DNA of 64,000 nt. Origin: Fabrea salina. Its lineage: Eukaryota > Ciliophora > Heterotrichea > Heterotrichida > Fabreidae. Where the stretch lies: NCBI GenBank assembly GCA_022984795.1, contig JALIHJ010000015.1, forward strand, positions 248,001 to 312,000. The letters run 5' to 3'. The notes under the pieces were generated by a model that was not told where the DNA came from, did no database searches, and saw only the letters and a list, made by a program, of their open reading frames with translations. Position numbers and translations under genes: made by a program. Each line of letters opens with the position of its first letter. Positions within the stretch are counted from its first letter, which is position 1. Below are positions 1,623 through 61,314 of this stretch, piece after piece.

Positions 1623-2865
1623 TTAGTACTCTGGATTTATTACATCGAATTCGTTTTCGTAAGCCTTGCCGCATCTCCACCCAGCTACTACTACAAAGCA
1701 CACAGAAGCCATCTGCAGCACCACTTTAAGTAGTTCAACTAAGTCGCTTTCTTGGGCAAAAGTTTTGAGTTCAAAGGACTTTTCGCAAGAGCTTATAGGA
1801 GCTAAGGCAATTGTGGCAGTTTCTAGGTCAATCACAGTGTAGAAGTTTTCTAAGAAGTGCCTGCCTAAAAGGATGTTGCTTCCTTCGTAGATTCTCACCA
1901 TACTGCAGTAGTTGTATGAATGCCTGCAGTAGGTCAAAAACGCCTCTAAAGTAAAGTGGAGCTTTGCAGACTGGTTGATAGTTATTGTAATGTTAGGCAT
2001 GGTCTCAGGCGGCCTTATGATTTTTTCGTCTAAGAAAATGTGGTTTTTTTCAGTGCACAGACTCGAGTGGCAGTCTTTTCCGTAGAATTCTTTAAAGGCT
2101 TCAATGGCTTTGCCCAGCAAGTGTGAAGGTATGTAGATGTCGTCGTAAGTAGTGTCAATGATCCCTTCGTAACTCCTAGAGTTAATAACTACACTGCCTA
2201 TTTGGAAAGTTTCTATGTTGAGAGAGTACCTGTCGTTGCGGATTATGGGGAACTTGTAAAAGTCCTCAGAACTATAGTTGGGGTCGAACCCTCCCAAGTG
2301 GAGCAGGGATTCTCCTTGGTTGCAGCAGATTCCCAGCACAGGTTTTAATTCTCCTTTCCTAATAATGAGTTACCTCAACTAAGTTCTCGAAAACAGACAA
2401 CCCGTACATATCATACATGTTCTCTACACCCAAGCCTATGACTCCATCAAAGTCAGGGTGGAAGCTTTCTTCAAGGATTCTTCCGAACAAAGCCTCGTCC
2501 AAACTGAACTTGCCAAACCTAACATGCTCAAGAGATAAAGTTCCACTTGCACTGTACCCAAGCAAGTCAGAATAGTCAAAAGAGCACTCGTTAGTCATAC
2601 GCAAAGTTTCGCCCTTCACGCACATCGGAGAACTTATAGTAATCATTTCAAAAGTGTTTGAGTCAGCTGAGTAGCTTGTTCTTTTGTCTGATTTGCAGCC
2701 AAAACACCCAAAGTCCAGGACCATCAACAAACTAGTTCCCAAACTGACCTGCATGTCAAAAGGCTGTCCTCCTAAGTACACCTTAGTTAAGTAGTGAGTA
2801 TGGTTCTTCGAAAACAACTCAACCCAGTCACCCAGGACTAAACTGATAAGTAACAACAAAATCAT
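1623..2865 (-). CDS. Secreted or membrane-anchored pepsin-like aspartic protease with one tiny intron
   Basis: Two frames join across a GTAA...TAG intron near 2359-2373 to give about 408 residues. Exon 1 starts with a signal peptide (MILLLLISLVLG) and carries the first active-site region VLDFGCFGC, where pepsins normally have DTGS. Exon 2 continues with GELKPVLGICCNQ, LHLGGFD and the second active-site region IIDTTYDDIYIP, where DSGT or DTGT is usual. Both aspartates are kept but their surroundings are unusual, so activity or specificity may be altered. A hydrophobic stretch near the C-terminus (VVLQMASVCFVVVAGW) could anchor it in the membrane. The frame change requires removal of 16 nt, one more than the obvious 15-nt intron. 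It starts 8 nt from the divergent UPF2 start. Confidence 0.75.
2359..2373 (-). other. 15-nt spliceosomal intron (16 nt net needed) in aspartic protease gene
   Basis: On the minus strand the stretch reads GTAACTCATTATTAG, with GT and AG borders and an in-frame TAG ending exon 1. Removal of exactly 15 nt keeps the wrong frame. The downstream protease frame (KGELKPVLG) is reached only if 16 nt are removed, for example by shifting one border by one base. Known heterotrich introns are 15 or, rarely, 16 nt. Confidence 0.65.
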
Positions 2866-2873
2866 CCAATATT
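2866..2873. promoter_or_regulatory. 8-nt divergent spacer between protease and UPF2 start codons
   Basis: Only CCAATATT separates the two ATG codons. Any core promoter and 5' leader for both genes must lie inside the opposite coding sequence or be almost absent. Confidence 0.6.
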
Positions 2874-35710: not shown

Positions 35711-36370
35711 ATGTCAGAAAAGCTCAAGAAACTATTTTGGGCTTGCCCCTCAGGTTCTTGCAACGAATCCCGTTCTCCGCAGTTGTTGAAGAGCCTGAGG
35801 CTTTTGAACTCAGGCTTGTGCTTAGGAATGTTTTTGATGGGTTTTACCTTCTTTCCTGAGATTTACTTCATCTACCTGACGCACTGGGGGGTGGTTCTGA
35901 CGTTCCTGTTTAACTGTGTGTCTTTGGCTAGTCTTGTGTGTAAAGGGGCTGATCCAGTAGCTTACTTGTTGTTTGAGGTGGCTTGGACTGTGGAGTGGGT
36001 GGTCACTTTGCTCTTCTGGACTACCATTGCTCCCTTGGTTTCCTTTGAAGGAGGAGACCTGGTTTACAACTTTGTAGTGCATATCCTTCCAATGGCTTTA
36101 CTGCTTCTGGACTTCAGTTTAAACCGAATCCTGTTTTTAAGGGACCATTATTCTTGGGTAGCAGCTCTGATGCTAGTGTACGTTTTGGGAGTCAACTTGC
36201 CAGTGACCCTTGCTTACCAAACTGTGTACCCTTTAATTACTTACAACAACTTTTGGACCTACTTAATCCTATTTGCAGCTGTATTCATTGCTGTAGCTTT
36301 CTTTGAACTAGCTGTGTACATAAAGAAAAGGCAGTTCTTAAAAAGACACTCTCTATTAATAACTCTGTAA
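35711..36370 (+). CDS. Multi-pass membrane protein, AIG1/FAR-17a-like
   Basis: 219 residues with about six hydrophobic helices: GLCLGMFLMGFTFF, a THWGVVLTFLFNCVSL segment, VAWTVEWVVTLLFW, VHILPMALLLLDFSL, WVAALMLVYVLGV and YLILFAAVFIAVAFFELAVY. The TxWG at the start of helix 2, the His near the fourth helix followed by LLLDFSLNRILF, and the length fit the AIG1/FAR-17a or related Rolling-stone group, some of which hydrolyse fatty-acid esters of hydroxy fatty acids. In AIG1 a Thr and a His are catalytic; candidates here are in THWG and VHILP. The C-terminus is basic (KKRQFLKRH). Assignment is moderate. Its stop lies 2 nt from the convergent kinase stop. Confidence 0.6.
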   Translation: MSEKLKKLFWACPSGSCNESRSPQLLKSLRLLNSGLCLGMFLMGFTFFPEIYFIYLTHWGVVLTFLFNCVSLASLVCKGADPVAYLLFEVAWTVEWVVTLLFWTTIAPLVSFEGGDLVYNFVVHILPMALLLLDFSLNRILFLRDHYSWVAALMLVYVLGVNLPVTLAYQTVYPLITYNNFWTYLILFAAVFIAVAFFELAVYIKKRQFLKRHSLLITL

Positions 36371-38620: not shown

Positions 38621-39862
38621 TTAAAAAGGCAAGATTCTTTTCTTCTTGGACTTGGTTTGTGGGTTGGACTTTTCGGAACTGTAAATTTGTTGAATGTAAT
38701 AAGAGTTAAGTTGGCTTTCAATCCACAAATGCCACTTATGGAAGGGAACTTTTTCTTGCAGAGCTTTTTGGTAAAGGTTTTGGGTAGGGATGGTGCATAT
38801 GGTGTCCATGAAAGGAGAGTTGAGTTTGATTGCTTGAGTAGTGAGGGTGAAGTACTCCTCAGTGGGGTCTTTTCTCTTGACTTTGCTGCAAGGAATACTA
38901 ATGACTTCCCAGACTCCTGAGTCTTCTACTTGGGACTCCTTTTTGGTTTTGAAGATGTCTTCCTCAGCAATGTCTTCTAGGTTGGAGAACTCCGCCATCA
39001 AGGACACAGAGTAGGTTTCTTGTTTGGAAGGGGAGTTTTGTCTTGCGTGTTCTAAAACTTTGATTTCTTCTTCTAGTTTTTCGCAGTGTTTTTTGTACTT
39101 ATTGGACTCTTTAAGTAGTTCTTGGAACTTCTGGGTTTGGGTTTCTAGGTTTTCTTTGCTTTGGGAAACTTGGGTTTCTAGTTCTTTGATTTTGTGGTTG
39201 GAGCGTTGTTTTTCGTTTTCGAGAGAAGCTACTTGGTTTTTGACTTGGTCTAGTTGATCTTGGAGCGAGTTCTTCGACTCCAAAAGGTTTTTGCGTTCCC
39301 TTTCAAGTTCGTAGTTGGTTTTTTTCACTTTGCGGAACTGGGCGTGGAACTCTTCTTTGAGTGACTCAACGTGGAGTTCATACTCCTTGATTTGTGAGGC
39401 TTGGGTTTCAGGGAGTTCCCTGAGGGTGGAGATCTCTTTTTTGAGTTTGCGGTTTTCTGAGTCAAGAACCAGAATTTGCTCCTCTGCAGTTACTAAAGCT
39501 GAATTAATGTCTTCGGACTTTTGTTCTGAAAGTTCCCAGTTAGACTTGAGATCCTGGATTTGTTTTTGCAAGTGGTGGTTCTCGTTTTGGGCAGACTCTA
39601 GACGGTGCGTGTAGTTTTGTTGTTGGTCCTTGAGGGTCTGGTTGTTTTCTAAAAGGAGTTTGGCTATGCCTACTGCAGCGTTAAGTTCTTTTTCGCGGTC
39701 TGTGATCTCTTGAATGGCGTCCTGGAGTTCTTGGAGGGGGTCTTCTTTGTGTTCCTTGCTTTTGCGTTCCAAATAAGTCTGTGAAAGTTGAGCTGCTATG
39801 GACTCAAGCATCCCACTTAGTTGTTCAGTGTTGAGTTCCAAGTCTTCAGAAGTTTTAGCCAT
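38621..39862 (-). CDS. Coiled-coil protein with a possible dynein-adaptor-like CC1 box
   Basis: 413 residues from ATG 39862. Residues about 45-290 form an almost unbroken coiled coil. Its start includes LNAAVGIAKLLLENNQTL, which resembles the CC1 box of BICD, HAP1 and TRAK dynein adaptors (AA..G..LLE.N..L), though the Gly is not in the standard place. The C-terminal 120 residues are not coiled coil and contain an Asp/Glu patch and a basic end (KSKKKRILPF). Its start codon is 10 nt from the divergent SAM-domain gene. Confidence 0.7.
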   Translation of the reverse strand: MAKTSEDLELNTEQLSGMLESIAAQLSQTYLERKSKEHKEDPLQELQDAIQEITDREKELNAAVGIAKLLLENNQTLKDQQQNYTHRLESAQNENHHLQKQIQDLKSNWELSEQKSEDINSALVTAEEQILVLDSENRKLKKEISTLRELPETQASQIKEYELHVESLKEEFHAQFRKVKKTNYELERERKNLLESKNSLQDQLDQVKNQVASLENEKQRSNHKIKELETQVSQSKENLETQTQKFQELLKESNKYKKHCEKLEEEIKVLEHARQNSPSKQETYSVSLMAEFSNLEDIAEEDIFKTKKESQVEDSGVWEVISIPCSKVKRKDPTEEYFTLTTQAIKLNSPFMDTICTIPTQNLYQKALQEKVPFHKWHLWIESQLNSYYIQQIYSSEKSNPQTKSKKKRILPF

Positions 39863-39872
39863 TAAATAAAAG
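39863..39872. promoter_or_regulatory. 10-nt divergent spacer TAAATAAAAG
   Basis: The complete distance between the ATG of the coiled-coil gene (minus) and that of the SAM-domain gene (plus). A TATA-like AT element occupies all of it. Confidence 0.6.
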
Positions 39873-43294: not shown

Positions 43295-43306
43295 TTATAA
43301 AGGGCA
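43295..43306. promoter_or_regulatory. 12-nt divergent spacer TTATAAAGGGCA
   Basis: Lies between the amidotransferase ATG (minus) and the coiled-coil RING ATG (plus). Contains TATAAAG. Confidence 0.6.
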
Positions 43307-45307
43307 ATGTTCAGACCTAGACTAGGCACTAAAAATTCCAAAACTAGCGAAGGACTGCCTGCACTTAAAGCTGCCAAAACATACACTTCGTTTCGAAAAC
43401 CCAACCAAACATCCAAAGAAACTCCTGACTCCCAGTTCATCAAAGAACTAGAGTCCAAAATTGACGAGCAAAGCAAAGAACTCCAAAGCAGGAACTCTGC
43501 TGTGCAAAGTTTAGTTGAAAACGTCGAAAGTATCTTTAAAAGCTACAATGAAGAAAAACAAAAGAACTCCAACCTCCAGGCCCAAGTCAAAGACTTGCAA
43601 AAAAAACTCAAGTCCAATGAAACTGCCCTAACAAACAAATTTGAGTCCAGAGCCAAGGAACTCCAAAATCAACTTGCAAAAAGCCAGGCCAATGCATGCA
43701 ACTTGGAAACTCAGCTTACTCAAACTCAAAACAAACTAAGGTTAGTTTCTGGTCAACTCGAAACTCTGCAACACCAAGAAAAGTCCAAACAGTCACTTGA
43801 AGAAGAACACCCTAGACTCAAAGAAACCACTGAAACCCAGAAAAGGAAAATTGAGTTCCTTAACTCAGAACTAACTAAACTCAAAAGCAGCCTACTCACA
43901 ACTGAACTCAAACACTCAAAACTCCAAGAAGAAAACTCTTCACTGAAACAAAAGCACGAAGAACAACTCCAGCTTAAAGCAAATGAGTTAAGTGCTCAAA
44001 TCCACAGAATGTCTAATGAAATTGCTATTCTTAAGAAAGAAAAAAACGATGCTTTTGGTAAGCTTGAAAGAGCTTATAAAGCAACTCAGTCTTCTGAAAG
44101 CAACTCCAGCTTTTCAGCCCAACTCAGAACTATAAAAGACCAACTAGAAACTCAAATTCAAGCTAAAGAAGAACTAAACAGCCAAGTTGATAAACAAAAA
44201 GCCAAAATTCAGGACTTAAACATGCAATTAAACATTGCTTTGGATGCAAAACAACAAACTGAAACTAACACCCAACATCTAGAAGAACTAAACAGCCAAG
44301 TTGAGACCCTAAAAGCCCGAAATAAGGACTTAAGCATGCAATTAAACATTGCTTTGGATGCAAAACAACAACTAGAAGAACAAACAGACCAACTTAACAG
44401 TGTTTTAACTCTAAAACAACAACTTGAAATTAAAGTGCATCAACTAGAAGAACAAACAAGAACCCAAACAGACCAACTTAACACTGCTTTGGTTTTAATA
44501 CAACAACTAAAACAAGAACTTGAAGAACACAAAAACTACTTAAACAAAAGTACTTTTAAAGTACAAAAATTACAAGGAACCATTGAAGAACTGAATCAAA
44601 GACTCAGTTTTTCCCAAAGCAAACTTGAAGTCCAAAAACTCCACTCAGAAGTTTCAGTAGTTTCCAGCCAAAACCAGTGTCAAGCCCAACACGAAAAGGA
44701 ACTCCACAACCAAGTAGACAAACTAAAAGTAATGAACTCCAAACTCAGAGAAAACCTAAGGACTCTAGAAACAAAACCCAAACCTAAAAAGAACTCCCAA
44801 GTCCAAACTGAAAAGAAGCATTCTGAGAAAAAAGCCTTAATAGCCCAGTTACAAATAGAAGTAGCCCACTTAAAGCAAATAAAACACAACCTTAAAGCAG
44901 AACTAAACTCTTTAAAAGAAGCTAGTTTACACACCAAAAACCAAAAAAAAGTTCTTGAAGTCCAGTTGTCCGAAGTTTCAAATATCTTGAAAAGAACTGA
45001 CCAAGTTGCCCTGCAAGAAAAAGAAGAAGGCCTTTTGGCTAAGGAAAAATCACTCAGAACCACTGCTAGCAAACTCAAGCACGTTGTGAAGTCTTTAGAA
45101 ACTGAGCTGAGTTGCATGCAGTGCTTCAACTTAATAGAAAACGCAGTTATAGGACTTCCCTGCGGGCACATAACTTGTTGCAAATGCACTAGTAACTACA
45201 AGTGCGTTCAGTGCTTGCAGCCCATTTCAAACTACATCCCAGTTCCTGTGATCAGCGATATTTCCTCTAAAGTTAACTACCAACTCCAAGTCGTAAGCAG
45301 TGTTTAA
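43307..45307 (+). CDS. Long coiled-coil protein with C-terminal RING finger
   Basis: 666 residues. Residues about 45-590 are coiled coil, rich in Gln, Glu, Leu and Lys. The last 70 residues form a compact RING: CMQCFNLIENAVIGLPCGH, then CCKCTSNYKCVQCLQP, giving C-x2-C, C-x-H, C-x2-C and C-x2-C ligands. RING proteins of this form act as ubiquitin E3 ligases; the coil would provide assembly or a scaffold. A 114-nt internal duplication places two MQLNIALDAKQQ blocks 38 residues apart. The following gene begins 6 nt after the stop. Confidence 0.75.
   Translation: MFRPRLGTKNSKTSEGLPALKAAKTYTSFRKPNQTSKETPDSQFIKELESKIDEQSKELQSRNSAVQSLVENVESIFKSYNEEKQKNSNLQAQVKDLQKKLKSNETALTNKFESRAKELQNQLAKSQANACNLETQLTQTQNKLRLVSGQLETLQHQEKSKQSLEEEHPRLKETTETQKRKIEFLNSELTKLKSSLLTTELKHSKLQEENSSLKQKHEEQLQLKANELSAQIHRMSNEIAILKKEKNDAFGKLERAYKATQSSESNSSFSAQLRTIKDQLETQIQAKEELNSQVDKQKAKIQDLNMQLNIALDAKQQTETNTQHLEELNSQVETLKARNKDLSMQLNIALDAKQQLEEQTDQLNSVLTLKQQLEIKVHQLEEQTRTQTDQLNTALVLIQQLKQELEEHKNYLNKSTFKVQKLQGTIEELNQRLSFSQSKLEVQKLHSEVSVVSSQNQCQAQHEKELHNQVDKLKVMNSKLRENLRTLETKPKPKKNSQVQTEKKHSEKKALIAQLQIEVAHLKQIKHNLKAELNSLKEASLHTKNQKKVLEVQLSEVSNILKRTDQVALQEKEEGLLAKEKSLRTTASKLKHVVKSLETELSCMQCFNLIENAVIGLPCGHITCCKCTSNYKCVQCLQPISNYIPVPVISDISSKVNYQLQVVSSV
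44222..44371. repeat. Duplicated 36-nt coding block, 114-nt period
   Basis: ATGCAATTAAACATTGCTTT and the bases just after it occur identically at 44222 and 44336. Their encoded 12-residue block is unchanged, indicating a fairly recent in-frame duplication within the coiled coil. Confidence 0.75.
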
Positions 45308-50437: not shown

Positions 50438-51386
50438 ATGAAGATGCTGAAGTCAATATACAGTGACTTCGGACCTTACAAAGGAATAAACGGAAAGGTA
50501 GGCACAATTGGAGGCTGCTTCGAATACACAGGAGCACCTTTCTACGCAGCTATTTCAGCACTTAAAACAGGCGCAGACTTGTCACATGTTTTTTGCACAG
50601 CAAGTGCAGCCATACCAATTAAAAGCTACACTCCCGAACTAATAGTGCACCCTGTTCTCAAAGCTTCTGACGAAAATCCTGAGTTAGAGAACACCCAAAA
50701 CTGGAATCCAGAGCAAATAAACAAGCTAACCAAATGGTTTCCTGCACTTAAAACTCTAATTATTGGGCCAGGACTGGGCAGGGACCCTTACCTATATGAC
50801 TACATGATGCCAGCAGTGATTGCTGAAGCCATTGCCCAAGAAAAACTACTAGTGGTTGATGCCGACGGACTAAACCTTTACTGCAAACAAAAGGATGTTT
50901 ACAAAAGCTACACAGCGCACCATACTAACTCCTAATGAAATAGAATTCAGAAGACTTTGGGAAGCACACATGGAAGGAGAAGCCCCACAGAACTTAAGTT
51001 CCAGACTAGACCAAGAAATCAAGCAGTTAGACCCAGAAGACCCCTCTGTTGCAGGAGTGACCCAACTGAGCAGAGCACTGGGCAACGTGGTTTTAAAGAA
51101 AGGAACTGTAGATATAATCAGTGACGGGCATAAGACTCTGTGCGTAAGTTCAGAGGGCTGTCCCAAAAGGTCTGGTGGACTGGGAGACATCTTAACAGGA
51201 GCTATAGCTAGCATTGCTTACTTGGCTGAGTGCAGAAACATCGAAATAGTAGATGCAGTTGCCCAGGCATGCCTTTTAGTGAGACTAGCATCACTTAAAG
51301 CATTCCAAGAAAAAGGGTGGTCCCTTACAGCCCCTGACGTTTTGAACGTTTTGCCAAGTGTTCTTTCTGAGAGTTTAAGCAATTAA
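50438..51386 (+). CDS. NAXD: ATP/ADP-dependent NAD(P)HX dehydratase, frame change in the middle
   Basis: The enzyme repairs hydrated NADH and NADPH. Part 1 (50438 to about 50930) has GGCFEYTGAPFYAAISALKTG, IGPGLGRD and VVDADGL; part 2 has ILTPNEIEFRRL, NVVLKKGTVDII and GGLGDILTGAIAS, the phosphate-binding loop. The two parts lie in frames that differ by one base. Skipping one base near 50926 gives KDVYKSYTRTILTPN and about the usual family spacing between DADGL and LTPN. A GT...AG segment of 19 nt (GTTTACAAAAGCTACACAG) would also fix the frame but shorten the spacing. Sequencing error, frameshift or unusual intron cannot be told apart. The rest of the protein looks intact. Confidence 0.85.
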
Positions 51387-53722: not shown

Positions 53723-54505
53723 TCAACAAAGTAAACTTCCCCAAGAGTACAACGCGTGTATATCTGTAGAGGAGGGCCGACTTCCAGAGTCTCCAGTTAA
53801 CAAAACCATTTGGTTAAAACACACAGCAACTACACTTTTCGAGTTAAAAGAAATAGTTACACTAGAGGGTTCGTCTCCCTCAACTGCTAGTGTTTCCGCT
53901 GAAAACAACACTAACTGCAGAAAGGCTTGCACTAGTTGAGCAGAAGGCCCTAAAGTTTTTTTCACCAGTTTGGAGTAAGTTTCCTGGACTCGGAATCTTT
54001 TGTGCTTTTTGTTTGTGTGCTTCTCAGGAAATTCAGTGTTGAGTGAACTTGTGGCAGAACTAAAAACTGTAGAATACTCAGGAAAACTCAGGTACATAAA
54101 CTCAGGGTTTTCTAGTCTTTCTAGTAAGTTACTCATTAGCCGGTCTAAACACTCGTCTACAAGTTTCCTGACAAAATTCAAAAAGGGCTTAAAGGAAGGC
54201 TTTTCTTGGAGTTTACTGTAGTACTCAGACTCAAAGGTGCTGAGCATTGACTCACAAAAAGGTTTGGCGTCTTCTAGAGAAACACAGTTTTCTGCAAAAG
54301 TAGTAATCAAGCCCAAAGGCAAGTGGTTTGCTTTTAGTATACAAGTGAGTTGCTTTGCTTCTATAGTTTGGATTTCGAAGTCAGAACACTGCAGCAAGGA
54401 GTAGGCTTCCAAAGCAACTTGCATGGGGTCCTTTTTGGACTTGCAGAAGTCTTTGCTGTGCAGCACTTTTCCACTTTGAGTGTCAAAGAAAACGTACCTC
54501 TCCAT
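53723..54505 (-). CDS. Uncharacterised protein, possible longin-like fold
   Basis: 260 residues from the ATG at 54505, which is 7 nt from the divergent WBP2-like ATG. The N-terminus RYVFFDTQSGKVLHSKDF and later segments (GLITTFAENCVSLEDA) have a beta-hairpin and helix pattern like longin or roadblock domains of trafficking factors, but this is weak. No membrane helix or catalytic motif. Its start side and the short spacer support a real gene. Confidence 0.6.
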   Translation of the reverse strand: MERYVFFDTQSGKVLHSKDFCKSKKDPMQVALEAYSLLQCSDFEIQTIEAKQLTCILKANHLPLGLITTFAENCVSLEDAKPFCESMLSTFESEYYSKLQEKPSFKPFLNFVRKLVDECLDRLMSNLLERLENPEFMYLSFPEYSTVFSSATSSLNTEFPEKHTNKKHKRFRVQETYSKLVKKTLGPSAQLVQAFLQLVLFSAETLAVEGDEPSSVTISFNSKSVVAVCFNQMVLLTGDSGSRPSSTDIHALYSWGSLLC

Positions 54506-54512
54506 TATAAAA
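54506..54512. promoter_or_regulatory. 7-nt bidirectional spacer TATAAAA
   Basis: The complete distance between the ATG of the longin-like gene (minus) and that of the WBP2-like gene (plus). It is a perfect TATA-box type string. Confidence 0.65.
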
Positions 54513-55214
54513 ATGGCTTTAAACCCACCTGTGCTTCCCCAAGGAATTCCAGCCCCCGTGTCTGGAGAATACATGGTGCTTTGCAGAAACGACATCGACG
54601 CAGAAATTAAACTTGAAGACGGAAGCAAGTACAAAGGAAAAGGTGACCTCTACCTCACTACTGCCAGAATGGTCTTTGTCAAGCGAAAAAAAGGCAACAT
54701 GGACAGCTTCGATGTCCCTTTAGCTTTAATGACTCATGAACAGTTCAAACAACCTATTTTTGGAGCTAACTACATCACTGGTAAAGTCGAACCTTTGTAT
54801 GGACTCATTCCTTGCCCGGGTGTGTTCAAGTTTGCTTTTATGTCAGGAGGAACTGGTACTTTCGTCCCTCTGTTTTACAACATTGTCCAGCAAATCAGAA
54901 GCAGACGAGAACGTCGTCTCGCCGGACCTGACCCTAACTTCATAAATGCAGTTGCTCAAGGACAACTTAGAAATGTTGCTTACGTTGATCCCAACGACCC
55001 CACTACTATTTTTGTGCAGCAACCCCAACAGTCCCAACCTGCTCAACAACCAGTAAACTACTATTTTCCTCAAGGTCCTCCTCAGTACCAACAGCCTCCT
55101 CAGTACCAGCAACCACATCAGTACCAACAGCCACCTCAGTACCAGCAACCCCCTCAGTACCAACAGCCTCCTCAGTACCAGCAACCCCCTCAACATTACA
55201 ACCCACCTAGATAA
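54513..55214 (+). CDS. WBP2-like GRAM-domain protein with PPQY repeats
   Basis: 233 residues. The N-terminal GRAM/PH-like domain matches WBP2: MALNPPVLPQGIP, GKGDLYLTTARMVFVKRKKG, PLALMTHEQFKQPIFGANYITG, KFAFMSGGTGTF. The C-terminus is Gln/Pro-rich with seven PPQY or PHQY units of 18 bp. PPxY binds WW domains, so this is a multivalent WW ligand. In animals WBP2 binds YAP and NEDD4-family proteins. The GRAM core is well conserved; the repeats are the organism-specific part. Confidence 0.86.
   Translation: MALNPPVLPQGIPAPVSGEYMVLCRNDIDAEIKLEDGSKYKGKGDLYLTTARMVFVKRKKGNMDSFDVPLALMTHEQFKQPIFGANYITGKVEPLYGLIPCPGVFKFAFMSGGTGTFVPLFYNIVQQIRSRRERRLAGPDPNFINAVAQGQLRNVAYVDPNDPTTIFVQQPQQSQPAQQPVNYYFPQGPPQYQQPPQYQQPHQYQQPPQYQQPPQYQQPPQYQQPPQHYNPPR
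55080..55190. repeat. 18-bp tandem repeat coding QYQQPP
   Basis: About seven units of CAGTACCAACAGCCTCCT type encode PPQY/PHQY motifs. Slight variation (ccacat) makes one unit PHQY. Confidence 0.85.
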
Positions 55215-59614: not shown

Positions 59615-60469
59615 TTACTTACGCATAAGTTGGTCTGGGTTGGGGCAAAGTCTACCTAGAGAAATGGAAGTGTGCATGTCTGGTGACAAGGGCTTTTGGT
59701 AGTTCTGGAAGTGAGTAGTGAAGGTTTGCTGGTAGTGACTCACGTGAGGGTTCGAGGGCGAAACTACCCACTTCCCAATCTGGCCACTGCCCTTTATCAA
59801 GGCCTGTTTGCGTTTCATCAAGTCTTCTTTCGTCAAAACTGAGGCTTTGGCGTTTCTGTCTGCTGTTGGAGTTGTTTGTGGTCTTATCCAGGGCCTGTTA
59901 GCACTCGAGGACCTAATCCCCATAACGGCACTGTTTAGGTGGTCGGTTCTTTGGGACTTGTAGTTCTTAGAAGGGTCTTTCCAGTTGAAGGCATTGGCAT
60001 TCTCTGTAGCAGCCTTTGATTTTCGGAGTATCGCGCTTAAGGAACGCAAACATCCAAGGATTAGTTCCTGGTAGTTCTTGGAGTCTTTGAGGTCCAGCCA
60101 GTTCTGGATAAACATAACAGTCACTTTGGTCAGTACCCAACTGCACTCCAAGTCGGCAAGTTTTTTGTAGTCGAAAATGATTGTTTGAATGCTTTGAGCT
60201 CTTGGACCTGAAAATGAACTTTCGTAAGTAGACATTAGTTGTCTTTTCCTTAACTCAGAAGCAGCTGACTTTATTCCACGGGCTGAGTTGCGGGTTTCAT
60301 CGCCTTCGTTTCTAAATCGCTTTTTCCCTTTGTGCCTGTAAATTGCTCCAATGAGTTTAAGGCCCTTTTTTTCGTCCTTATTTGCTGCCTTCAGCCAGTC
60401 CTCAGCTCCGCTCTTGACTTCTTCCACAAGCACCAAATTCAAAATGTCTTTAAGGCTGTTATCTCCCAT
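59615..60469 (-). CDS. Uncharacterised protein, helical core with basic disordered parts
   Basis: 284 residues. Residues about 1-60 are helical and charged; residues about 100-160 form a helical core (LECSWVLTKVTVMFIQNWL, YQELILGCLRSLSAIL). The rest is Ser/Lys/Pro-rich. No family recognised. It begins 20 nt from the divergent carboxypeptidase and ends 8 nt before the helicase ATG. Confidence 0.6.
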   Translation of the reverse strand: MGDNSLKDILNLVLVEEVKSGAEDWLKAANKDEKKGLKLIGAIYRHKGKKRFRNEGDETRNSARGIKSAASELRKRQLMSTYESSFSGPRAQSIQTIIFDYKKLADLECSWVLTKVTVMFIQNWLDLKDSKNYQELILGCLRSLSAILRKSKAATENANAFNWKDPSKNYKSQRTDHLNSAVMGIRSSSANRPWIRPQTTPTADRNAKASVLTKEDLMKRKQALIKGSGQIGKWVVSPSNPHVSHYQQTFTTHFQNYQKPLSPDMHTSISLGRLCPNPDQLMRK

Positions 60470-60489
60470 TTTATATTCATCAGATTAAC
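60470..60489. promoter_or_regulatory. 20-nt divergent spacer
   Basis: TTTATATTCATCAGATTAAC separates a hypothetical gene and the carboxypeptidase gene. Contains TATATT. Confidence 0.5.
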
Positions 60490-61314
60490 ATGAACATTGA
60501 GTCAGACGTTTTCGAATTCAATAATAGTATTCTAGATCTATTTTGTTTAAATTCAGCCAAAGCCTGGGCAATTTATGACAGCAGGCAATTCAGCTTAATG
60601 GCTGGACTCAACGTTGAAGAGCAACGACAGGTCGCAAGTCTCTCCAAAATAATGACTTGTCTGGTAGTTTGCCAAATCATTCAAGAAAAAAGAATTAACC
60701 CTCAAGATTATTTAACTGTTTCTGAGGAAGCAGCCAACGTTAAAGGAACCTCAGCGAAACTGCAACCCTTCGACGAATTAAGGATCATTGACCTTCTTTA
60801 CGGACTGATGCTTCCTTCGGGAAACGACGCTGCTGTTGCTCTGGGAGAACACTTTGGAGGTCTTGTTGGAGAACGCAAAGGCCTCAAGACCTTCCTTAAA
60901 CTAATGAACTACTTCGCTAAAAAACTCAACTTAGACAACACTTACTTCCACAACCCACACGGACTCACTGCTAACCAAAACTACTCTTCTGCAAGAGACA
61001 TCAGTGTACTGGCAAGTTACTCCATGAGTTACCCCCTTGTTAGAAAAATTGTCAGGACAAAAGAATACGAAGTAACTATCTTCAATCAGGAAACTGGACT
61101 AAGAACCCAAATCTGGCAAAACACCAACAAAATCATTAACAATGAAATAGACGGAATCAAAACTGGAACTACTAAAGGTGCTGGAAAGTGCTTGTGTGTA
61201 AGAGTCAATAAACATTATATAATAACTGTGCTCGGGTGTGACCAAGACTACCACAGATGGGTAGACACCAAAATATTAGCTAAAACTCTTTACCTTTTCA
61301 ATGAAGATCTATAA
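60490..61314 (+). CDS. Bacterial-type D-alanyl-D-alanine carboxypeptidase (peptidase S11)
   Basis: 274 residues. All three penicillin-binding motifs are present: SxxK as ASLSKIM, SxN as PSGNDAAV, and KTG as GIKTGTT. The family normally trims D-Ala from peptidoglycan pentapeptides. Here it lies among eukaryotic genes and has no signal peptide I can see, although proteins without leaders occur. A role in digesting bacterial food walls, or an adapted lactamase-like role, are both conceivable. It was probably acquired from bacteria in the ciliate lineage; codon use does not differ obviously from neighbours. Confidence 0.85.
   Translation: MNIESDVFEFNNSILDLFCLNSAKAWAIYDSRQFSLMAGLNVEEQRQVASLSKIMTCLVVCQIIQEKRINPQDYLTVSEEAANVKGTSAKLQPFDELRIIDLLYGLMLPSGNDAAVALGEHFGGLVGERKGLKTFLKLMNYFAKKLNLDNTYFHNPHGLTANQNYSSARDISVLASYSMSYPLVRKIVRTKEYEVTIFNQETGLRTQIWQNTNKIINNEIDGIKTGTTKGAGKCLCVRVNKHYIITVLGCDQDYHRWVDTKILAKTLYLFNEDL

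Follow-up and report, generated by a model that had tools for sequence, protein, structure and literature searches.

In the ciliate Paramecium tetraurelia, 5′ untranslated regions (UTRs) mapped by Cap-Seq are reported to have a mean length of 21.7 and a median of 19 nucleotides (nt), and the 5′ leaders of Tetrahymena are given as longer, with a median of 88 nt (PMC5485702). For Halteria grandinella, a 5′ UTR of about 18 nt and TATA-like motifs that are widespread near the start are described (PMC7858049). In Giardia, the initiator is reported to be AT-rich and somewhat symmetric and to include the transcription start, with leaders down to one nucleotide (PMC3792122, PMC1872034). The present analysis concerns a 64,000-nt stretch of the genome of the heterotrich ciliate Fabrea salina (contig JALIHJ010000015.1, here C10, 248001-312000; assembly of 18,328,466 bases in 103 contigs), hereafter the window. 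It contains five pairs of divergent genes whose start codons are separated by 7, 8, 10, 12 and 20 nt, the closest pair starting at 54505 on the minus strand and 54513 on the plus strand (coordinates are those of the window unless a contig is named). These genes are probably ordinary neighbours in an extremely streamlined macronuclear genome, and compaction together with a general A/T start word would explain their proximity.

Divergent gene pairs and genome compaction

The exact positions of the five spacers given in the initial annotation were verified in the sequence (Table 1). Their description as AT-rich also holds (67-100% A+T). Four of the five had been said to carry TATA-like words; a strict TATA is present in three (TATAAAA, TTATAAAGGGCA and TTTATATT...) and absent from CCAATATT and TAAATAAAAG. 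The same annotation had credited both genes of each pair with recognizable products or full-length frames, and indeed all ten frames are fully open and a Pfam search with a match threshold of E<=0.001 returned matches for 8 of the 10 flanking proteins, three of which (GRAM, coiled-coil and RING) fall under the Pfam curated cut-off. No Pfam match at this threshold was found for the minus-strand proteins starting at 54505 and 60469. The five spacers are real gene junctions and not chance words.

The frequency of such junctions was determined in a 256-kb sample comprising C10 240001-315985, positions 100001-160000 of contigs C1 and C2, and positions 50001-80000 of contigs C20 and C30. A simple set of open reading frames (ORFs), in which introns are ignored and ORFs with a codon score below 8 are left out (e.g., 35711-36370), contains 178 genes, and coding sequence occupies 86-92% depending on the block. 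The median spacer is 16 nt between convergent genes (n=37), 26 and 37.5 nt between tandem genes (n=52 and 48) and 52.5 nt between divergent genes (n=36). With the 54505 start, 10 of the 36 divergent pairs are separated by 20 nt or less (5, 6, 7, 7, 8, 10, 11, 12, 15 and 20 nt); under a first-ATG rule the number becomes 9 of 36, the 54505 gene then overlapping its neighbour by 83 nt. Pairs this close make up 5 of the 9 divergent pairs in the window and 5 of the 27 outside it (p=0.08); the short spacers there include AATAA, TATAAA and TTATAAT (5-7 nt). Extrapolation of the 10 pairs seen to the whole genome gives about 716 pairs at 20 nt or less, with a Poisson range of about 340-1320, assuming that the sample is representative.

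A compaction model that assigns one 3′ flank and one 5′ flank to each gene was fitted to the convergent and tandem pairs only and then used to predict the divergent ones, of which 35 remained after a dubious nested pair on C2 (-719) was dropped. The model predicts 8.5 divergent pairs at 12 nt or less and 8 are observed, so that the number of close pairs, which had been regarded as something special, is what simple compaction predicts. The distribution within this range has a different shape: 4.1 pairs are expected at 0-4 nt and none is seen, and at 5-12 nt there are 8 pairs versus 4.4 expected. Spacings of 4 nt or less occur in none of the 35 divergent pairs, compared with 18 of 100 tandem pairs (p=0.004) and 10 of 37 convergent pairs (p=0.001). 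Tandem and convergent pairs abut or overlap, whereas the sampled divergent pairs never come closer than 5 nt, which is the length of the start word described below. The shape of the distribution thus suggests a floor near 5 nt.

A general A/T start word

The upstream analysis retained 176 of the 178 genes, two having no 80-nt upstream stretch. Among 120 confident genes, each of the positions -5 to -1 relative to the ATG is 84-89% A+T, with values of 58 to 77% at single positions from -6 to -40. The five bases preceding the ATG include at least four A or T in 101 of the 120 genes versus 1057 of 4347 internal ATGs. The commonest words at -5 to -1 are AATAA (11 genes), TATAA (10) and TAAAA (7). 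TATAA abuts the ATG in 10 of the 120 genes versus 3 of the 4347 internal ATGs, with at most 3 occurrences at any other offset tested. Where the gene-start context consists entirely of A and T, TATAA or TTATA is found in 13 of 63 cases and TTATAA in 5 of 52. A search for upstream words in 58 genes returned scattered words, the top one being GTTTAG in 6 genes versus 1.0 expected.

In a TATA-box promoter the TATA word lies about 25-30 nt upstream of the transcription start. A TATA box some 30 nt before the ATG was considered for these genes and rejected: with positions counted from the ATG, A+T does not peak clearly around -25 to -35 in the 120 genes, and TATAA peaks at -5 to -1 instead. TATA words precede tandem genes as well. 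Since TATA-like words are found at ordinary starts too, they belong to the usual surroundings of start codons in this genome, and their proposed role as a mark of divergent promoters is not upheld, although true divergent spacers may be further enriched in them.

An A/T word such as AATAA, TATAA or TAAAA, occupying the five bases that abut most ATGs, is the one constant 5′ signal found. Compaction could shrink a divergent spacer to little beyond one such word, which would then stand next to both ATGs. RNA polymerase II would initiate close to each ATG, from a few to about 20 bases away, and the A/T-rich, easily melted stretch may be used as an initiator-like site on either strand. Leaders would be very short and, in the tightest pairs, would lie within the spacer or extend across the first codons of the neighbour. 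The A/T word probably doubles as the translation-start context, and a strictly bidirectional promoter would not be needed. The genome encodes a TBP, whose two repeats both score strongly. The initial annotation had proposed nearly leaderless mRNAs and a single AT element serving both directions. One A/T word does stand beside both ATGs at the shortest spacers, and the arrangement makes very short leaders likely, unless transcription begins inside the neighbour; strictly leaderless mRNAs and a single element for both directions are possible.

Possible promoters inside the opposite gene

Alternatively, the promoter of each gene could lie within the opening codons of its partner, in which case the 5′ leaders of a pair would overlap in antisense. 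A leader of the median length found in Paramecium, 19 nt, would place the transcription start 11-14 nt inside the neighbour at spacers of 5-8 nt, and transcripts of Encephalitozoon cuniculi are reported to initiate often in upstream genes (PMC3629993). The composition of the opposite coding sequence was compared between 36 close-pair flanks (20 from the sample and 16 from the inspected sites described below) and 117 other genes. There is no A+T excess at bases 4-60 of the opposite coding sequence (0.571 versus 0.582, p=0.33), and bases 4-15, corresponding to codons 2-5, show an A+T deficit (0.553 versus 0.609, p=0.024). Neither is there an excess of TATAA or TTATA in the opposite coding sequence (1 of 36 versus 10 of 117, p=0.46). 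In addition, the A+T content of close pairs falls from 0.82 over the 10 nt immediately upstream of the ATG to 0.60 at -20 to -11 (12 genes). The earlier conclusion that core promoters necessarily extend into the coding sequence of the other gene is therefore not sustained by these comparisons. A promoter buried there is without compositional support, though an element free of A/T bias would escape this kind of comparison, and such an arrangement is conceivable but doubtful.

A possible bidirectional core element

A further reading takes one symmetric A/T element with the core TTATAA as a complete bidirectional core promoter, from which both mRNAs would emerge leaderless or with leaders shorter than about 8 nt. 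The spacers of 5-7 nt outside the window are in keeping with it. So is the initiator of Giardia, where some adjacent genes are reported to start in both directions at the same nucleotide; according to the authors of that study, however, bidirectional transcription is unrelated to the symmetry of the consensus (PMC3792122). In the F. salina genome, CATTTATAAATG occurs 26 times versus 4 for the reversed word, and CATTTATAATG 86 times on both strands versus 13. On the other side, the same words precede tandem genes and several short spacers are without TATA (AATAA, CCAATATT, TAAATAAAAG).

Genome-wide counts of CAT-Wn-ATG, two divergent start codons with n A/T bases between them, are 276, 422, 312, 209 and 106 at n = 3, 4, 5, 6 and 8, and the reversed word gives 249, 91, 118, 50 and 18 at the same lengths. 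A codon-chain simulation predicts 159, 198, 51, 12 and 12 for CAT-Wn-ATG; its values for the reversed words are 204, 69, 60, 30 and 3. Low simulated values are based on few hits (12 stands for 4). The excess of the forward word over its simulation is thus 6- to 17-fold for n = 5, 6 and 8 and about 2-fold for n = 3 and 4, and the reversed control also exceeds its own, by 1.2- to 6-fold. The first 20 listed W5 sites and the first 20 listed W6 sites, all outside the sample, were inspected. The W5 sites have genes on both sides in 5 cases, on one side in 10 and on neither in 5; for the W6 sites the numbers are 3, 13 and 4. Allowing for a 15-nt intron, one or two further sites (L054 and L047) could also be pairs. 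A CAT-W5-ATG or CAT-W6-ATG site does not, then, predict a divergent pair, genes being present on both sides in 8 of 40. The use of these counts as a census of divergent pairs was rejected for this reason and because the reversed control is also in excess. As judged from the inspected sites, the excess seems to consist mostly of single gene starts with A/T before them, plus a real minority of true pairs.

TATAA or TTATA is found in 86 of the 312 genome-wide CAT-W5-ATG sites and 13 of the 63 all-A/T gene starts (p=0.28), and TTATAA in 26 of the 209 CAT-W6-ATG sites and 5 of the 52 gene starts (p=0.81), so that neither is significantly commoner in the CAT-spacer-ATG sites. In the last 12 nt before the ATG, TATAA or TTATA occurs in 9 of 20 close divergent and 12 of 50 wide divergent flanks (p=0.09, spacers counted twice).

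Several observations weigh against compaction and a general start word as the whole explanation. Five of the ten short spacers hold TATAA or TTATA, compared with 2.07 expected from two superposed independent start contexts (p=0.036), a figure that also speaks for a bidirectional element; the independent-position model, for its part, underpredicts TATAA at ordinary starts as well (10 seen versus 4.0 expected). The 9 of 20 close divergent flanks with either word also stand against 12 of 98 tandem ones (p=0.002, spacers again counted twice). The genome-wide comparison of sites with gene starts is diluted because only 8 of the 40 inspected CAT-W-ATG sites are gene pairs, and among the inspected sites TATAA or TTATA is present in 3 of 8 with two genes, 5 of 23 with one gene and 0 of 9 others. 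The fitted flanks miss the empty bin at 0-4 nt (4.1 expected, 0 seen). The 5-nt floor itself is drawn from 35 sampled pairs, and CAT-W4-ATG is above expectation genome-wide (422 sites, compared with 198 in the simulation and 91 of the reversed word). Finally, the frequencies come from 36 divergent pairs in 1.4% of the genome, in a gene set that ignores introns.

On balance, a symmetric element acting as the complete core promoter of both genes is unlikely. The fuller form of this idea is slightly less probable again: here a 5-8 nt A/T word, often the near-palindromic TTATAA, would be both a full bidirectional core promoter and the translation-start context, in hundreds of pairs with both mRNAs leaderless. 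The reading preferred here is compaction acting on genes that share a general A/T start word.

The minus-strand occurrences of CATTTATAATG include C16:2257, C41:2062, C51:1824, C52:2031, C63:2096, C77:1357 and C89:2340. These 7 of the 86 sites are on seven contigs, each 1.3-2.4 kb in from the contig start. This recurrence near contig starts suggests a repeated subtelomeric gene or element.

Start codons of the flanking genes

For 8 of the 10 start codons an in-frame stop is found within 12 codons upstream, with no ATG between. The frame of 39862(-) is open for 41 codons upstream, none of them an ATG. The frame of 54505(-) is open for 48 codons and includes in-frame ATGs at 54574 and 54595, both inside the GRAM-domain gene on the plus strand. 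A start-context matrix was trained on 120 genes, among them some of the ten, though not the gene starting at 54505. It scores 54505 at 3.62, a value reached by 0.9% of 4314 internal ATGs, versus -3.73 for 54574 and -6.68 for 54595. The codon signal per codon at 54505 is 0.17 in the first 15 codons versus 0.000 in the preceding 30. Position 54505 is the better start. The contexts of 8 of the 10 genes are within the top 5% of internal ATG scores, those of 2865(-) and 43307(+) being weak. The codon signal over 43307-44006, the 234 codons ahead of the next ATG, equals the genome mean of 0.14, and in 8 of the 10 genes the first 15 codons equal or exceed this mean. In the S11 gene the next ATG, at 60598 (36 codons on), would cut the S11 domain because homology begins at residue 22.

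It is very improbable that one gene of each pair has its true start downstream of the ATG given here or in a first exon of its own: the two weak contexts, the alternative in-frame ATGs of the 54505 gene and candidate 15-nt introns (L054, L047), by which a first exon could be missed, would favour such an annotation artefact, but the early codon signal and the start contexts of most genes argue against it, as does the loss of homologous S11 residues and of the aspartyl-protease leader that the next in-frame ATG would entail.

At L054, from about 357 to about 530, a 15-nt GT..AG candidate intron lengthens an ORF from 56 to 110 codons. An intron census of the 256-kb sample gave no excess of GTA..TAG at 15-16 nt.

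Flanking genes and genome context

Table 1. Spacers between divergent start codons and the genes on either side of them.
Feature	Coordinates	Strand or position	Remarks
7-nt spacer TATAAAA	54506..54512	between ATGs 54505(-) and 54513(+)	A+T 100%
ORF, no Pfam family, 260 aa if begun at 54505	53723..54505	-	upstream in-frame ATGs 54574 and 54595 are weaker start candidates
GRAM-domain protein, 233 aa	54513..55214	+	PF02893 (under curated cut-off); presumably WBP2-like; strong start context
8-nt spacer CCAATATT	2866..2873	between ATGs 2865(-) and 2874(+)	A+T 75%
Aspartyl-protease-like gene, N-terminal part, hydrophobic leader at start	2359..2865	-	Pfam homology from residue 25; leader by eye
MIF4G-domain protein, UPF2-like, 901 aa	2874..5579	+	Pfam
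10-nt spacer TAAATAAAAG	39863..39872	between ATGs 39862(-) and 39873(+)	A+T 90%
ORF, 413 aa, weak coiled-coil-type matches	38621..39862	-	Pfam
SAM-domain protein, 374 aa	39873..40997	+	Pfam
12-nt spacer TTATAAAGGGCA	43295..43306	TATA word abuts minus ATG; plus ATG context weak	A+T 67%
Class-I glutamine amidotransferase domain protein, 377 aa	42161..43294	-	Pfam
ORF, 666 aa, weak RING-type match at C-terminus	43307..45307	+	Pfam
20-nt spacer TTTATATTCATCAGATTAAC	60470..60489	between ATGs 60469(-) and 60490(+)	A+T 80%
ORF, 284 aa, no Pfam family found	59615..60469	-	open frame
S11 D-Ala-D-Ala carboxypeptidase family protein, 274 aa	60490..61314	+	homology from residue 22

Some of the genes in the window have features of their own. 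The S11 carboxypeptidase gene at 60490-61314(+) is of a bacterial type, found here in a ciliate, and shows no obvious signal peptide by eye; a bacterial origin is possible. The aspartyl-protease-like gene at about 1623-2865(-) seems to change frame near 2359, with a continuation in another frame towards about 1623 when read by eye. Aspartyl proteases usually carry an N-terminal catalytic DTG motif, and this gene, also read by eye, seems to be without it. A carbohydrate-kinase-like gene at 50438-51386(+), presumably NAXD-like, is spread over two overlapping frames, which would be joined if a 19-nt GT..AG stretch, noticed by eye where the frames meet, is an intron. Searches with Rfam and ARAGORN returned no matches in the window.

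The end of C10, the only contig end looked at, carries a telomere array of (GGGTGTTA)n at C10 315515-315985, about 3.5 kb to the right of the window, which therefore lies close to a chromosome end. The repeat GGGTGTTA is the complement of a permutation of CCCTAACA, reported as the telomere repeat of Blepharisma (PMC9942806). Long ORFs read in the standard code (table 11 translation), and Fabrea is reported to use the canonical code (PMC10553269). In 107 long ORFs of the 256-kb sample, NAC codons are strongly preferred over NAT for Asn (2648:644), Asp (2249:527), His (941:268) and Tyr (1897:361), while the bias is weaker for Cys (765:489) and reversed for Phe (TTC 1326, TTT 1657). Asn, Asp, His and Tyr are the four amino acids with queuosine tRNAs, and NAC preference has been linked with queuosine. 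Two TGT-family matches are present in the genome.

Comparison with known systems

In the present sample, 5 nt is a sequence-level lower limit for the DNA between divergent genes of a free-living eukaryote, and the minimal size of a eukaryotic promoter becomes a question that 5′-end mapping at defined sites can answer. Should the leaders turn out to have only a few bases or none, cap-dependent choice of the start codon without a leader could be studied in this genome as a test case. A partial literature search, covering sources other than the Fabrea and Stentor genome papers, returned no paper on Fabrea spacers, and the pattern may already be published.

As far as the sources describe them, the closest parallels are found in other compact genomes. 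Like F. salina, Paramecium tetraurelia has a compact ciliate macronuclear genome, and its very short 5′ UTRs and some overlap between neighbours are on record (PMC5485702); leader lengths were measured in Paramecium, whereas here they are deduced from sequence. Halteria grandinella is comparable in its extremely short 5′ UTRs, as the leaders of F. salina would also be, and in TATA-like motifs close to the start. Its chromosomes, in contrast, are mostly single-gene nanochromosomes, and its motif is reported to begin at a mean distance of 17 bp before the transcription start, which itself lies 18 bp from the ATG, while the A/T word of F. salina touches the ATG (PMC7858049). In Pseudokeronopsis, an AT-rich conserved element is described between the transcription start and the start codon, but this is a 15-nt element on nanochromosomes rather than a 5-nt word abutting the ATG (PMC8899921). 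A leader like those of Giardia would fit inside a spacer of 5-8 nt (PMC3792122). Giardia is an unrelated organism, however, and the initiator of F. salina is putative; moreover, the TBP of Giardia is reported to be highly divergent (PMC1872034), unlike the one encoded here. The ultra-compact, short-leader gene organization of F. salina is thus of a kind already known in protists, with the 5-nt limit as a modest surprise.

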